Of a stretch of 64,000 bases of DNA, positions 514 to 19,751 are shown piece after piece. Position 1 is the stretch's first letter, and every line of letters begins with the position of its first letter. The stretch is from Gemmatimonas phototrophica (GTDB taxonomy: Bacteria; Gemmatimonadota; Gemmatimonadetes; Gemmatimonadales; Gemmatimonadaceae): NCBI GenBank assembly GCA_945869195.1, contig CAMBNV010000009.1:1-64000 (forward strand), in the 5' to 3' direction. The notes under the pieces are model-generated. The model was not told the DNA's origin. It did no database searches and saw only the letters and a list, made by a program, of their open reading frames with translations. The translations under genes and the position numbers were made by a program.

Positions 514-2016
514 TTAGCCGTTGCCCTTGATACCCTGCTCGCGGGATTCCCGGGCCGTGACCGAGTTCCCAGGAATCCCCTGCACGCGGCCTCGGCAACT
601 TCCGGCTCCGCACTGGCAGTCGAAGGCCTCGCTCGCAGCGTCGAGCAGTTCGTGGTAGTCGAGCGTGAGCTCCTCGCCCGTCACGATGTCGCGTCGGGCG
701 ACTACGTCGAGGCCGTCGTAGCGTGTGTTCGCGTCACAGGAATGGTTCTGCGGTGCCCACGAGTCGGGATCCTCGTCCCAGATCGCGTACACCTGATCGC
801 TAATCGGAACAGCATAGTGCCGAAAGAGCTCGCGATCAGGTCCGCTCCAGTTGGCGTCCACGTGGCGTCGGGTCACGAGCCGCAGCGCGCGGCCCTCGCC
901 GCGGAAAACCGTCTCGCCAAGCACGATCGAACGAGTGGCGACGATCCCGTACCCCGCAATGGAGTTGCCGCGCATCTCGAACGAGCGGAGCCCACGTTCG
1001 TGCCGCGCGATCCCTTCGGCGATGATCCGTTGGAGGAATCCGGACTGTCCGATCCCGTCGAGCTTGAGGATGTGATCCGCTGAGCCCTCGGCCCCCTCCG
1101 GATAGAACACGGAGCAGGTGAAGTTCACCTCGAGGAAATGGATCTTTTCGGTAGCGTCCATGCGGAAGTCCATCCGCGCGTAGCCCACGCCGCCAAACCC
1201 CGCAAAGAGCCGTTCGGCCGCGTCGCGCAGACGCGCCACGAGCGGTTGATCACGCACACGGACGTTCGCTTCGGGGTGAAGCTCACTCGTTTTGAGCGCG
1301 TAGCTCTTATACCGAAAGCCCGGCGGAAAGAGATACTCGATCGGCGCGAGCGCAGTCCCCCGGCCCTTCCCTGAGACGTCGCCAACGACGAGCACCGTGA
1401 ACTCCCGGCCGTCCACATACTCCTCGACCAGCAGCTCGGGGTACTCCTCGGCGAGGCGCAGCGCCTGCGCACGGAGTGCCGCAGCGTCGGCGACCACAGC
1501 GTGCTCATCGACACCGAGGCTGTCGCCGGCCTTCACGGGCTTCACAAAGAGCGGATACCGGAGGTGTCCGGTAGCGCGCCGCAGTCCGGCATCGATCAGC
1601 ACCTCAGTGGCTGCCGCCCCCGCGGCCGTCGCACCACGCACGATCGCACCCGCGTCGACCACGGCATGCATCGGCGTCGCGACACCCACCGTATGTGCGA
1701 CGTACTTCATCAGCGGCTTCGACGGGTCGTAGAGCACCGGCGTGGGGCCCGTGTACGGCAGGCGGAGCGCCTCGAGCGAGTGGATGACGTCAATCGACGG
1801 GACATCCCACTCGAGATAGCCCTCGCAGAGGTTCACGAAGACGTCAAAGCCCTGCACCGAGAGGCGTTTGAGCTGGCGGTACGTGGAAAGCTTGTTGAGC
1901 GCCTCGTGATGCACCTCGTGCCCAAGCAGGAGCGGGGCGAGGTCACGGGTGGGATCGTAGTGGCGGTAATCCACACCGGACGCCGAGTAATCCGGCTGGA
2001 GAACACAGACCTTCAT
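514..2016 (-). CDS. ATP-grasp (D-Ala-D-Ala ligase-like) ligase fused to C-terminal SET domain
   Basis: ATP-grasp part (YPLFVKPVKAGDSLG, LLVEEYVDGREFTV, FLEVNFTCS); SET part with NHSCDAN, GEELTLDY and post-SET cysteines CQCGAGSC. Confidence 0.85.
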   Translation of the reverse strand: MKVCVLQPDYSASGVDYRHYDPTRDLAPLLLGHEVHHEALNKLSTYRQLKRLSVQGFDVFVNLCEGYLEWDVPSIDVIHSLEALRLPYTGPTPVLYDPSKPLMKYVAHTVGVATPMHAVVDAGAIVRGATAAGAAATEVLIDAGLRRATGHLRYPLFVKPVKAGDSLGVDEHAVVADAAALRAQALRLAEEYPELLVEEYVDGREFTVLVVGDVSGKGRGTALAPIEYLFPPGFRYKSYALKTSELHPEANVRVRDQPLVARLRDAAERLFAGFGGVGYARMDFRMDATEKIHFLEVNFTCSVFYPEGAEGSADHILKLDGIGQSGFLQRIIAEGIARHERGLRSFEMRGNSIAGYGIVATRSIVLGETVFRGEGRALRLVTRRHVDANWSGPDRELFRHYAVPISDQVYAIWDEDPDSWAPQNHSCDANTRYDGLDVVARRDIVTGEELTLDYHELLDAASEAFDCQCGAGSCRGRVQGIPGNSVTARESREQGIKGNG

Positions 2017-3221
2017 CGCGCGACAGCGCGACGGCTGCGGGCAAGCCGCGGGCGCGAAACGCCAGGTTCGGCAGAGACGTCGATGATCTCTCCGATGGCG
2101 CTCGCGAAGCTGGTGCGGGCGAACTTAAGAATCGCGCCGATCGACGTGTACGCCTCGTCCTCGGAGATACCGCACTGCGCGTTGACCTCCAGCACCTGGA
2201 GCTCGCCGGTCTCGGAGTCCTCTCGGAGATCGACGCGTCCATACCCGCGCCCGCCCACGGCCTCGTAGGCAGCCCAACTGATGTCCATCACACGTTTGGC
2301 GGTTGCCTTTGACACCTTGCGGTAGTTCCAAAGGTCGGCGTCATCCTCGAGCGGATCCTCGGTCTCGTACAGCCCCCAGAGGCGGTCGAACGAGAGGAAA
2401 CGCTCGGTGGGTGGAAGCGCCTCATTGAAGAGCCGTTCGACCGGCGGGTAGATCGTCGCGCGCGCCTGATTGTCGTACGACCCCACGATAAAGGTCGTGT
2501 ACTCGGGCCCAGCCAGGAAGCGCTCGACGAAAACACCGCCGCCCACGAGATCCCAGCCGTGATAGCCCTTGTTCAGCCGCTTGAGTGCGGCCCGTAGCGC
2601 CTGCGGTGACTGCACCACGCTTTTCGTCGTAATCCCAAGACTGCCCGCCGAGACGGCGGGCTTGAGAATGAGCGGCGTACCGAGCCGTTTGATGATGTCG
2701 TTGATCCCACTGCCATCGCGCGGAATGACCTCCCAGGGCGAGGTCGGGACGCCGGCACGATCAAACGCCTCCTTCATCACAATCTTCGAGGTCGTGACGT
2801 CGTAGAAGCGTTCGTCGGCACCCGTGTAGCGCAGGCCGTGTTCTTTGATGCACCGGATTACACTGAGGCCAGGCGAGCCATTGATCTCGTCGCCGTCGCA
2901 GAGATTCAGGACAATCGGCTCGTGGCCGACAGAGTCGCGGACGATCGCACTCAGTACGTCCCGGTGATTCGCGAGCGTGACCGGCTGCCAGCGCCAGGCA
3001 AATCCCAGCGCGGCAAACGCACGCTCGTACTCGGCTCGACTCTGCTCAAAGTCGGAGTACCAGGCGATGTCAGCATCGGCGGTCTCGACGACAGGCACTA
3101 GGACCCACACCAAGAAGGGGGAGTCCGAAAGGGCGCGAAGCGCGAGCGGTGCCGCGGTCACCGGGTCGGCATCAATGACATATAGATGGCGGATAGAAAC
3201 CGTTTCGGACTCACAATGCAA
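2013..3221 (-). CDS. ATP-grasp ligase, D-Ala-D-Ala ligase-like
   Basis: LILKPAVSAGSLGI, VFVERFLAGPEYTTF, RVDLRED...VLEVNAQCG; 4-nt overlap with the downstream ATP-grasp-SET gene; TTG start uncertain. Confidence 0.8.
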   Translation of the reverse strand: MHCESETVSIRHLYVIDADPVTAAPLALRALSDSPFLVWVLVPVVETADADIAWYSDFEQSRAEYERAFAALGFAWRWQPVTLANHRDVLSAIVRDSVGHEPIVLNLCDGDEINGSPGLSVIRCIKEHGLRYTGADERFYDVTTSKIVMKEAFDRAGVPTSPWEVIPRDGSGINDIIKRLGTPLILKPAVSAGSLGITTKSVVQSPQALRAALKRLNKGYHGWDLVGGGVFVERFLAGPEYTTFIVGSYDNQARATIYPPVERLFNEALPPTERFLSFDRLWGLYETEDPLEDDADLWNYRKVSKATAKRVMDISWAAYEAVGGRGYGRVDLREDSETGELQVLEVNAQCGISEDEAYTSIGAILKFARTSFASAIGEIIDVSAEPGVSRPRLARSRRAVAR

Positions 3222-9540: not shown

Positions 9541-10962
9541 TCAGACCGTCACCCGCCCGACGTCAATCCGAATCTCCCGCCACCGGCCGCTCTTGAACCG
9601 CTGCACCGAGAGCAGCGCCCGCATCATGTGCCCAGCCAAGATCGCCATCCAGACGTCGGTCGGCTGTAGCGGCCGACTCAGCTGGATCACCGTCAGCATC
9701 CCAATCGGGATCGCGACCTGCGACACCAGCGTGATAAAGAGTGGTGCTTTCGTGTCGCCGGTACCGGTGAGCCCGCCAGAGTAGGTGAGTGCCGTCGTGA
9801 TGAAGAGCCCCGAGACGCTCAGCCACCCCAGTAGCTGTGTGCCGAGCGCGAGCACGATCGGATCTTCCATGCCAAAGAGCCCAAGCAAGAAGCGCGGGAT
9901 CGTGAGGAAGAGCAGGCCGATCGTCAGGGCGATCCCCAGCCCCATGCGCGAGGCGATCTGCACTGTCCGCTCCACCCGCTCCGGCTTTCCGGCCCCGAGG
10001 TTCTGGCCTGCCACCGCCGCGGTTGCACCCATCAATCCGACGCTCGTCCAGGTGATGAACGAGAAGAGCTCCGAATAGCCCACCGCGAATGCCGCCTGCG
10101 CCTGCGCACTGTTCTCGAGTGAACCGATGTAGCGCAGCAGCAGCACGCCCGCGACATTCATCGCGATTCCCTGAATTCCCGCCGGCAGTCCAAACCGGAA
10201 CAGCTGTTTGATGATCGTCCAGTCCCAGCGCCAGTCCATCTCGCGTTCCCAATGAATCACGAGATGGCCCGAGAGCAACCGCCAAAATCCGTACGCACTC
10301 ACGATCAGACCCGCGAGGACTGTCCCGAGTGCCGCTCCCATCACGCCCATCGCCGGGATGGGGCCCAGGCCACGAATGAAGATGATGTTGAAGCAGACAT
10401 TGAGCAGCGTCATCGCGACGCCCAACCGAAGGCCGGTGCGTGCATCGCCGGCCGACCGCAGCGCGCCGCCGAGCATGAACATCAGCATCATCCCCACGCC
10501 GCCCACGAACATCGTACGCAGGTAGGGCAGCGCCTCGACCTGCACCGAGGGCGCCGCGTTCACGAGATCAAGCAGCATGGGTGACAGGAGCCAGCCGACC
10601 GGTGCCATCACGCAGAGCGCGAGCACGATTGTCGCGAGGAATGCCTGGTAGACCGTGCGATTCACCGCCGCGGCGTCGTTCGCGCCAGCGAAGCGCGCGA
10701 CGAGCACGCCCATCCCGGTGTAGATCGACATCACGAACACAATCACGACCAGAAAGATCTGGAACGCGACGCCCACGGCCGCATTGCCCGAGAAGCCTAC
10801 GAAGCGGCCGACCATCGCATGGTCGATCACCCCCTGCATCCCGCCAATCACGTTCTGCAGGACCGAGGGCCAGGCGATCATCCAGACCGCGCTAATGATC
10901 GGCCCTTCGACGATGGAACGGTCGAAGGTCGTGCTTTTCGGAGCGGAGGATGCGGTGGCCAT
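9541..10962 (-). CDS. MATE family efflux transporter
   Basis: Two-fold MATE topology; IAWPSVLQNVIGGMQGVIDHAMVGRF..., AGQNLGAGKPERVERTV; internal ATG (MATASSAPKST) preferred to the long ORF start. Confidence 0.85.
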   Translation of the reverse strand: MATASSAPKSTTFDRSIVEGPIISAVWMIAWPSVLQNVIGGMQGVIDHAMVGRFVGFSGNAAVGVAFQIFLVVIVFVMSIYTGMGVLVARFAGANDAAAVNRTVYQAFLATIVLALCVMAPVGWLLSPMLLDLVNAAPSVQVEALPYLRTMFVGGVGMMLMFMLGGALRSAGDARTGLRLGVAMTLLNVCFNIIFIRGLGPIPAMGVMGAALGTVLAGLIVSAYGFWRLLSGHLVIHWEREMDWRWDWTIIKQLFRFGLPAGIQGIAMNVAGVLLLRYIGSLENSAQAQAAFAVGYSELFSFITWTSVGLMGATAAVAGQNLGAGKPERVERTVQIASRMGLGIALTIGLLFLTIPRFLLGLFGMEDPIVLALGTQLLGWLSVSGLFITTALTYSGGLTGTGDTKAPLFITLVSQVAIPIGMLTVIQLSRPLQPTDVWMAILAGHMMRALLSVQRFKSGRWREIRIDVGRVTV

Positions 10963-11051
10963 TGCACTCAATGATTGCCCCCCGCGCGGCGGGCGACAAG
11001 CGAGCGTCGCCTCGATCGGCGAATCCAATTCTACAGCTCCCCCGCCGCCGC

Positions 11052-12338
11052 TCAGACGCCGCGCTTCTCCTCGGGGTGCAATCGCCCCAGCGTCCTCAGC
11101 GTCGGGATCAGCCACGCGACCAGGGCGACCACGCCGAGCGTCGCCACGCCACCAATCACCACACTGCGCGCCGTGCCCCAGAGCCGCGCCGTGAGTCCCG
11201 ACTCGAACATCCCAATCTCGTTCGACGACCCAATGAATATCTGGTTCACCGAACTCACCCGCCCCAACAACGCCTCAGGGGTGCGCGACTGCAGCAGCGT
11301 GCTGCGGATCACCACGCTCACCATGTCGAACATTCCGCTCGCAATCAGGAGCCCGATCGAGAGGTAAAAGCTCGTCGAGAGCCCAAAGAGCACCATGCAC
11401 AGACCAAAGCCCGCGACCGACCAGAGTAGCACCGGTCCGGTGCGGTTCCACCCCCGCCCGCGCGCGACTAGCACGCTCATGATCACGGCTCCGATCGCTG
11501 GCGAGGCGCGCAGCACCCCAAGGCCGGTCGGCCCCACATGCAGGATCTCTGCGGCGAAGATCGGCAGCAGCGCCACCGCGCCGCCAAAGAAGACCGAGAA
11601 GAGGTCAAGGGTGAGCGCGCCCAGGAGCACCGGCTCGCCAAACACAAACGCGATGCCCCCCTTCACCGATTCATACACCCCCTCGTGCGTCGGCTCGCGT
11701 ACCGGCGAGCGATGCACAATCGAGATCGCGACCGCGACCGCGAACACCATCAGCGCCACATCGACCGCATACGCCAACGGCGCGCCACCAATCGCGTAGA
11801 GCACCCCGCCGAGCGCCGGCCCGATCACGGCCGCCAGCTGCCAGGCGCCACTGCGCCAGGTGATCGCGTTGGCAAAGAGGGCGCGTGGAATGAGCTCGGC
11901 CGAGAGCGCCTGCCGCGCCGGCTGCAAAAACGCGCGCGCGACGCCGCTTAGCACAATCACCGAGTAGATCGCCACCAGCCGCGTGCGCGAGAGCAGCGCG
12001 ACGCCCATCGAGCCAGCGCCCGCCAAGAACCAGAGCGCCACGCTGCACCCGACCAGTACCCAGAGCGCCGCAATCGCGATCCGGCGCCGGTCATACCGGT
12101 CGGCCACATGTCCCGCATAGAGCGCCATGCTGATCGCCGGCAACGCCTCGGCCAGCCCGATCATCCCGAGCGCGAGCGGGTCCTTGGTGAGGTCGTAGAT
12201 CTGCCACCCCACCACCGTGCCCTGAATCTGAATCGCCATCGTGAAGGCGAATAGACAGACGACGTACCGCGCGAACTTGGGGTGCCTGAGTGCCGCGTAC
12301 GAGTCCCGCGGCCCCGTGGCGGCGTCAGACTCAGCCAT
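11052..12338 (-). CDS. MFS transporter (EntS-like exporter)
   Basis: YVVCLFAFTMAIQIQGTVVGWQIYDLTKDPLALGMIGLAEALP...GHVADRYDRRRI. Confidence 0.8.
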   Translation of the reverse strand: MAESDAATGPRDSYAALRHPKFARYVVCLFAFTMAIQIQGTVVGWQIYDLTKDPLALGMIGLAEALPAISMALYAGHVADRYDRRRIAIAALWVLVGCSVALWFLAGAGSMGVALLSRTRLVAIYSVIVLSGVARAFLQPARQALSAELIPRALFANAITWRSGAWQLAAVIGPALGGVLYAIGGAPLAYAVDVALMVFAVAVAISIVHRSPVREPTHEGVYESVKGGIAFVFGEPVLLGALTLDLFSVFFGGAVALLPIFAAEILHVGPTGLGVLRASPAIGAVIMSVLVARGRGWNRTGPVLLWSVAGFGLCMVLFGLSTSFYLSIGLLIASGMFDMVSVVIRSTLLQSRTPEALLGRVSSVNQIFIGSSNEIGMFESGLTARLWGTARSVVIGGVATLGVVALVAWLIPTLRTLGRLHPEEKRGV

Positions 12339-19334: not shown

Positions 19335-19751
19335 ATGCCCCACGACCCGCTGCACGAACTCCGCCACCACACCTACGTCATGATCCGCCCCTCTCCGGTC
19401 GCGGGGATCGGCGTCTTCGCCCTGCGCCCCATCCCCAAGGGCTGCCGCGACATCTTCACCCCGCCCGCCGGCGGCGCCGACGGCTACGTCGCCGTCCCTC
19501 GCCACGAGATCGACGCGCTACCCGAGCACGCGCGCCTTCTCGTCGAGACCTACTGCCTCTATGACCACGCGCATTACCACCTTCCCGAGGACGGATTCAA
19601 GAAGATGGACCTCGTCCACTTTCTGAATCACTCCGAGACACCCAACGTGCGGTCCGTTGACGATGGGGCCTGGTTCGAGGCGCTCGTCGACATCGAATCG
19701 GGGGCGGAGCTCTTTGTCGATTACGGCACGCTCGTCGAGGAGGAGACGTAA
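19335..19751 (+). CDS. Small SET-domain protein
   Basis: SPVAGIGVFALRPIPKG...FLNHSETPNV...FVDYGTL. Confidence 0.8.
   Translation: MPHDPLHELRHHTYVMIRPSPVAGIGVFALRPIPKGCRDIFTPPAGGADGYVAVPRHEIDALPEHARLLVETYCLYDHAHYHLPEDGFKKMDLVHFLNHSETPNVRSVDDGAWFEALVDIESGAELFVDYGTLVEEET

Follow-up and report, generated by a model that had tools for sequence, protein, structure and literature searches.

Two adjacent genes at the start of the window, by which we mean the whole analysed stretch of 64,000 nucleotides from Gemmatimonas phototrophica, probably form the core of a small-molecule pathway (we put this at roughly 60%) in which a methylated di- or tripeptide-like metabolite would be made and then exported. 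One gene encodes an ATP-grasp ligase and the other a second such ligase fused to a SET domain, a fold studied almost entirely in protein-lysine methyltransferases. The two genes, here called c1 and c0, lie as follows:

514 to 2016, minus strand: c0, fused ligase-methyltransferase of 500 aa, with an ATP-grasp domain at about residues 1-342 and SET and post-SET regions at about residues 345-480 (Pfam PF07478 and PF00856, alignments, AlphaFold model, Foldseek).
2013 to 3161, minus strand: c1, partner ATP-grasp ligase of about 382 aa from a GTG start placed by comparison with relatives (Pfam PF07478, model, Foldseek).

The c1 open reading frame reaches TTG 3221 (2013-3221, minus strand, 402 aa), and the start was placed at GTG 3161 because the closest c1 relatives begin there; the latter is probably the start used. 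Both frames share the ATGA at the end of c1 and the start of c0, as originally described, and the examined loci of the window's genus retain a 4-nt overlap (ATGA, GTGA or TTGA). The start of the window is also a contig end, so little sequence lies downstream of position 514. On the minus strand, positions 1-480 encode the C-terminal part of a member of a small secreted-protein family (c6), whose genes follow the pair downstream in sister genomes; the plus strand carries the apparent end of a fasciclin-type gene, judged by eye.

Both proteins belong to the ATP-grasp carboxylate-amine ligase superfamily by domain score, Mg/ATP residues and fold. The Dala_Dala_lig_C domain is found in c0 (E 1.7e-16) and c1 (E 1.3e-14) with 60.8 and 54.7 bits, above a gathering score of 24, and the positions corresponding to the ATP and Mg ligands of D-alanine–D-alanine ligase (Ddl; K/R/D/E/N) are invariant across 30 relatives of c0 and 32 of c1. 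AlphaFold models of the fusion (pLDDT 88, pTM 0.82) and of c1 (pLDDT 84.6, pTM 0.85) find their best PDB matches among Ddl structures (8evy and others; E 5e-18 and 2e-20, respectively). All 50 Foldseek matches listed for the c0 model are of Ddl type, and the SET assignment draws instead on Pfam, on motifs and on the sequence similarity to BurB and MLL1. The C-terminal region of c0 scores above the gathering threshold of PF00856 (34.4 vs 22.4 bits, E 3.2e-8) and has the hallmarks of the SET family, namely GxG, NHSC, the pocket tyrosine within EELTLDY and the post-SET zinc cysteines (CxCG...C). Across 30 aligned relatives N424, H425, C427, C467, C469 and C474 do not vary, and conservation of Y454 is at least 95%. 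As judged from these residues, the ligase and methyltransferase sites of the pair look intact, and the feared loss of the SET fold or of the ATP-grasp Mg/ATP ligands was not seen: motifs and ligands are conserved, and the ATP-grasp fold is Ddl-like. Compared with the nearest relative (L067), third codon positions have diverged about 3-4 times as much as positions 1 and 2 in c0 and c1 alike, a pattern consistent with purifying selection. A second SET protein of 138 aa is encoded in the window at 19335-19751 on the plus strand (Pfam SET 4.5e-10); it lacks post-SET cysteines and is not close to the free SET protein c2 described below.

The best PDB and Pfam matches of the pair being Ddl, a role as cell-wall or resistance ligases of Ddl/Van type has to be weighed. 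The resemblance lies in the overall fold and the Mg/ATP residues. However, identity to Ddl is only about 20%, the pair carries NLC[ED]G in place of the Ddl N-terminal motif, and c0 has a fused SET domain. NCBIfam Ddl scores of 55-72 bits (c0 55.5/61.6, c1 56.2/71.7) fall far under cut-offs near 245 (TIGR01205, 245.65 bits; PRK01372, 243 bits), whereas a true Ddl encoded elsewhere in the same genome reaches 281/327 bits. In a phylogenetic tree c0, c1 and solo fusions (see below) group together (SH-aLRT 99), separate from Ddl and other ligases, and within this clade c0 and the solo fusions are sisters (97); this was a quick tree in which long branches meet, so its deeper joins are tentative. Re-inspection also bore out that no mur or van gene adjoins the pair. 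On these grounds a Ddl/Van role was rejected as extremely improbable, in line with the original prediction that an ordinary Ddl role is unlikely.

A scan of genome contigs gave 277 relatives. The 80 that were kept come mostly from Bacteroidota, Chitinophagaceae above all, and otherwise from Gemmatimonadota; among the hosts in culture are Ferruginibacter paludis, Lacibacter luteus, L. cauensis and Sediminibacterium. The neighbourhood survey proposed at the outset found c1 beside c0 on the same strand in 80/80. Three apparent absences of c1 (L077, L080 and L084) were rejected as artefacts, traced to gene calling, the edge of a contig or a pair of inserted genes; all three loci have c1. Just the c1 end is visible in L077, at the contig edge. 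Two genes separate c1 from c0 in L080; these (L080:5437-7037) encode a DNA methyltransferase and a 205-aa protein, likely a restriction-modification pair, and c1 and c0 are both unbroken. With active sites that look intact, no ordinary Ddl among the two proteins and the pair conserved as a unit, the original prediction withstands the objections foreseen for it. Among sampled genomes the fusion occurs in 31/298 Gemmatimonadota and in 60/200 of the Chitinophagaceae, the family of Lacibacter, and no plasmid-borne copy was found at E 1e-20. Eight sampled genomes from other families of the class carry a solo ligase-SET protein, about 36-41% identical and forming a divergent clade, and c1, c2 and c3 were not found in the stretches read around it. 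The fused protein can thus apparently work without c1, which was probably gained or lost later. The system originally described is real as a pair, but it is larger than described, and the fusion also occurs alone in other families.

The larger extent was seen in the 48 Bacteroidota loci that extend 3.5 kb or more to either side of the pair. Two further genes recur there in tight spacing: c2, a free-standing SET protein of about 165 aa (46/48), and c3, an ABC_membrane_3 protein (PF13748) of about 300 aa and of the transmembrane-domain-only ABC transporter type (35/48), whose length leaves no room for an additional ATPase domain. The order is c2-c1-c0-c3 in 32 loci, c2-c1-c0 in 13, c1-c0-c3 in two and c1-c0-c3-c2 in one; the last arrangement is also found in some Gemmatimonadaceae (L114, L116). 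In one locus (L146:6261-7931) c2 is fused to the N-terminus of c1 in a single open frame, giving a SET-ligase followed by a ligase-SET, an order that argues for functional coupling.

ATP-grasp ligases that share an operon with a transporter and a modifying enzyme also resemble the clusters of ribosomally synthesized peptides (RiPPs), and a graspetide-like system acting on a precursor peptide was considered. The ligases, however, are Ddl-like, gaps between the genes are short, and of 451 candidate small open reading frames near the pair none is conserved in more than four loci. As a conserved precursor gene beside the ligase was not found, the system was not assigned to the graspetides, and such an origin of the product is very unlikely.

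To our knowledge, BurB is the one clear example of a SET methyltransferase acting on a small molecule. It is a methionine S-methyltransferase (PDB 9l4t) that binds free Met by way of main-chain atoms and, through proximity and desolvation, converts it into S-methylmethionine (PMC12542666). Among solved SET structures BurB is the best match of the c2 profile (E 3.4e-23), ahead of histone methyltransferases (1.4e-10), and the two share YxSTE, HSC, CxCG...C and the loop length to the zinc cysteines, so that c2 is of BurB type by nearest solved relative and motifs. BurB itself is free-standing, belongs to the malleicyprol/DMSP pathway and has no known ligase partner. One specific form of the metabolite reading follows this likeness, with the SET proteins making S-methylmethionine and the ligases coupling it into a peptide or osmolyte; a PLP decarboxylase near the pair in three sister loci, and upstream in the window, would suit it. 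Yet the grouping of c2 with BurB in the SET tree is weak (81 UFBoot/46 SH-aLRT, with only a BurB fragment included), conservation of the decarboxylase does not extend beyond the genus and, because BurB grips Met through main-chain atoms, residues give no readout of substrate. This sulfonium version is accordingly an improbable one.

The SET domain of c0 is no nearer to BurB than to histone methyltransferases: it matches BurB (2.3e-11) and MLL1, a histone methyltransferase type (2.8e-11), equally well, and YxSTE is absent from it. With the SET domains of the solo fusions it forms a supported clade (97/94), consistent with a single fusion event. Its equal distance from MLL1 leaves room for a protein-lysine substrate, and the ligases might, like RimK or TTLL enzymes, add amino acids to a protein on which the SET domain then methylates lysine, the classical SET substrate. 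A eukaryotic precedent joins a SET-like domain to an ATP-grasp-type ligase, as in c0: TTLL12, which has lost key residues and in which no activity was found in vitro (PMC3520985). Its SET-like domain is N-terminal, the reverse of c0, and its ligase is of TTL and not Ddl type, so the two fusions would be of independent origin. Against modification of a protein, both ligases of the pair are Ddl-like, not RimK/TTL-like, no substrate gene is conserved nearby, and the operon includes a transporter and a BurB-like SET protein; this alternative seems unlikely. The original prediction had offered either an N-methylated lysine-containing peptide or a ligated tag on a protein. For the tag no evidence was found. 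A methylated peptide is favoured by the exporter-like partner, the BurB-like c2 and the lack of a conserved protein substrate or precursor nearby, but methylation at lysine nitrogen did not gain support, the nearest characterized SET enzyme acting on Met sulfur (PMC12542666).

Within the genus of the window, 15/17 genomes have the pair or at least part of it, in a different setting. No c2 is linked to it there, and a linked ABC_membrane_3 partner was rejected, PF13748 being absent genome-wide. Unlinked BurB/c2-like SET genes occur among housekeeping genes in 10 of the 17 genomes. The features concerned are:

9541 to 11115 of the window, minus strand: MATE-family transporter, a candidate exporter putatively associated with the pair (Pfam PF01554, neighbourhood comparison).
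11052 to 12338 of the window, minus strand: MFS transporter, putatively associated but perhaps in plain synteny (Pfam PF05977/PF07690, neighbourhood comparison).
C2:239062-239433 (L048:6820-7479): unlinked c2-like SET gene of the window's own genome.

A MATE or MFS gene lies upstream of the pair at nine loci of the genus: MATE directly upstream in five sister genomes, MFS adjoining the pair or one gene away in four others. Upstream in the window itself, past two AddAB-like genes, come MATE, MFS and the PLP decarboxylase. These transporters may replace c3 as exporter in this genus, although synteny may explain their position. An M14 carboxypeptidase beside the pair in 11 loci of the genus was set aside as convergent and rare outside it. 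Separately, the same family has Ddl-like ATP-grasp genes without SET domains close to a thyX-like gene (L042, L043, L060, L063), arranged as tandem pairs in all of these loci but L043. L043 and L063 also have a KamA-type lysine aminomutase nearby, and L063 a GNAT gene. These loci possibly encode a beta-lysine peptide pathway.

A small-molecule pathway, as proposed above, is the best fit to ATP-grasp ligases, SET domains and a transporter encoded together with neither a precursor peptide nor a conserved protein target. ATP-grasp enzymes use ATP to convert a carboxylate into an acyl phosphate, which an amine attacks, and SET domains transfer a methyl group from SAM to a side-chain nucleophile. 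We infer that c1 and then c0 would each activate a carboxylate in this manner and couple it with an amine, so that a compound resembling a di- or tripeptide results, and that the SET domain of c0 would methylate a side chain of the substrate or product, with lysine N, methionine S and histidine N as candidate atoms. The BurB-like c2 would act in the same pathway in Bacteroidota. Export would putatively fall to c3, which lacks an ATPase domain, or perhaps to MATE or MFS in the window's genus. A scheme with two ligases does not hold universally, since the eight solo fusions occur without c1 and the window's genus is without linked c2 or c3.

Secondary-metabolism operons with ATP-grasp peptide ligases offer a parallel in combining one or two ligases with modifying enzymes and transporters, but their partner enzymes are different, and the accessible part of that account makes no mention of SET domains (PMC2922099). 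Within the open-access literature searched, a scope outside which the subscription-only 2009 amidoligase survey of Iyer et al. falls, no description of a ligase-SET system was found, and TTLL12 was the only relevant case of ATP-grasp and SET together. We see about even odds that Chitinophagaceae and Gemmatimonadota make an undescribed class of natural products or osmolytes, peptide-like molecules built by two ligases and SET-methylated as free amino acids or short peptides. If the proposed pathway is correct, the conserved ligase-SET operon would reveal SET enzymes as regularly used by bacteria to assemble small molecules, with the fold which marks chromatin in eukaryotes working here on free amino acids or short peptides. 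The pathway would be open to assay in cultured strains of Lacibacter, Sediminibacterium and Ferruginibacter, and would bear on the roles that SET domains have in bacteria besides those in chromatin.
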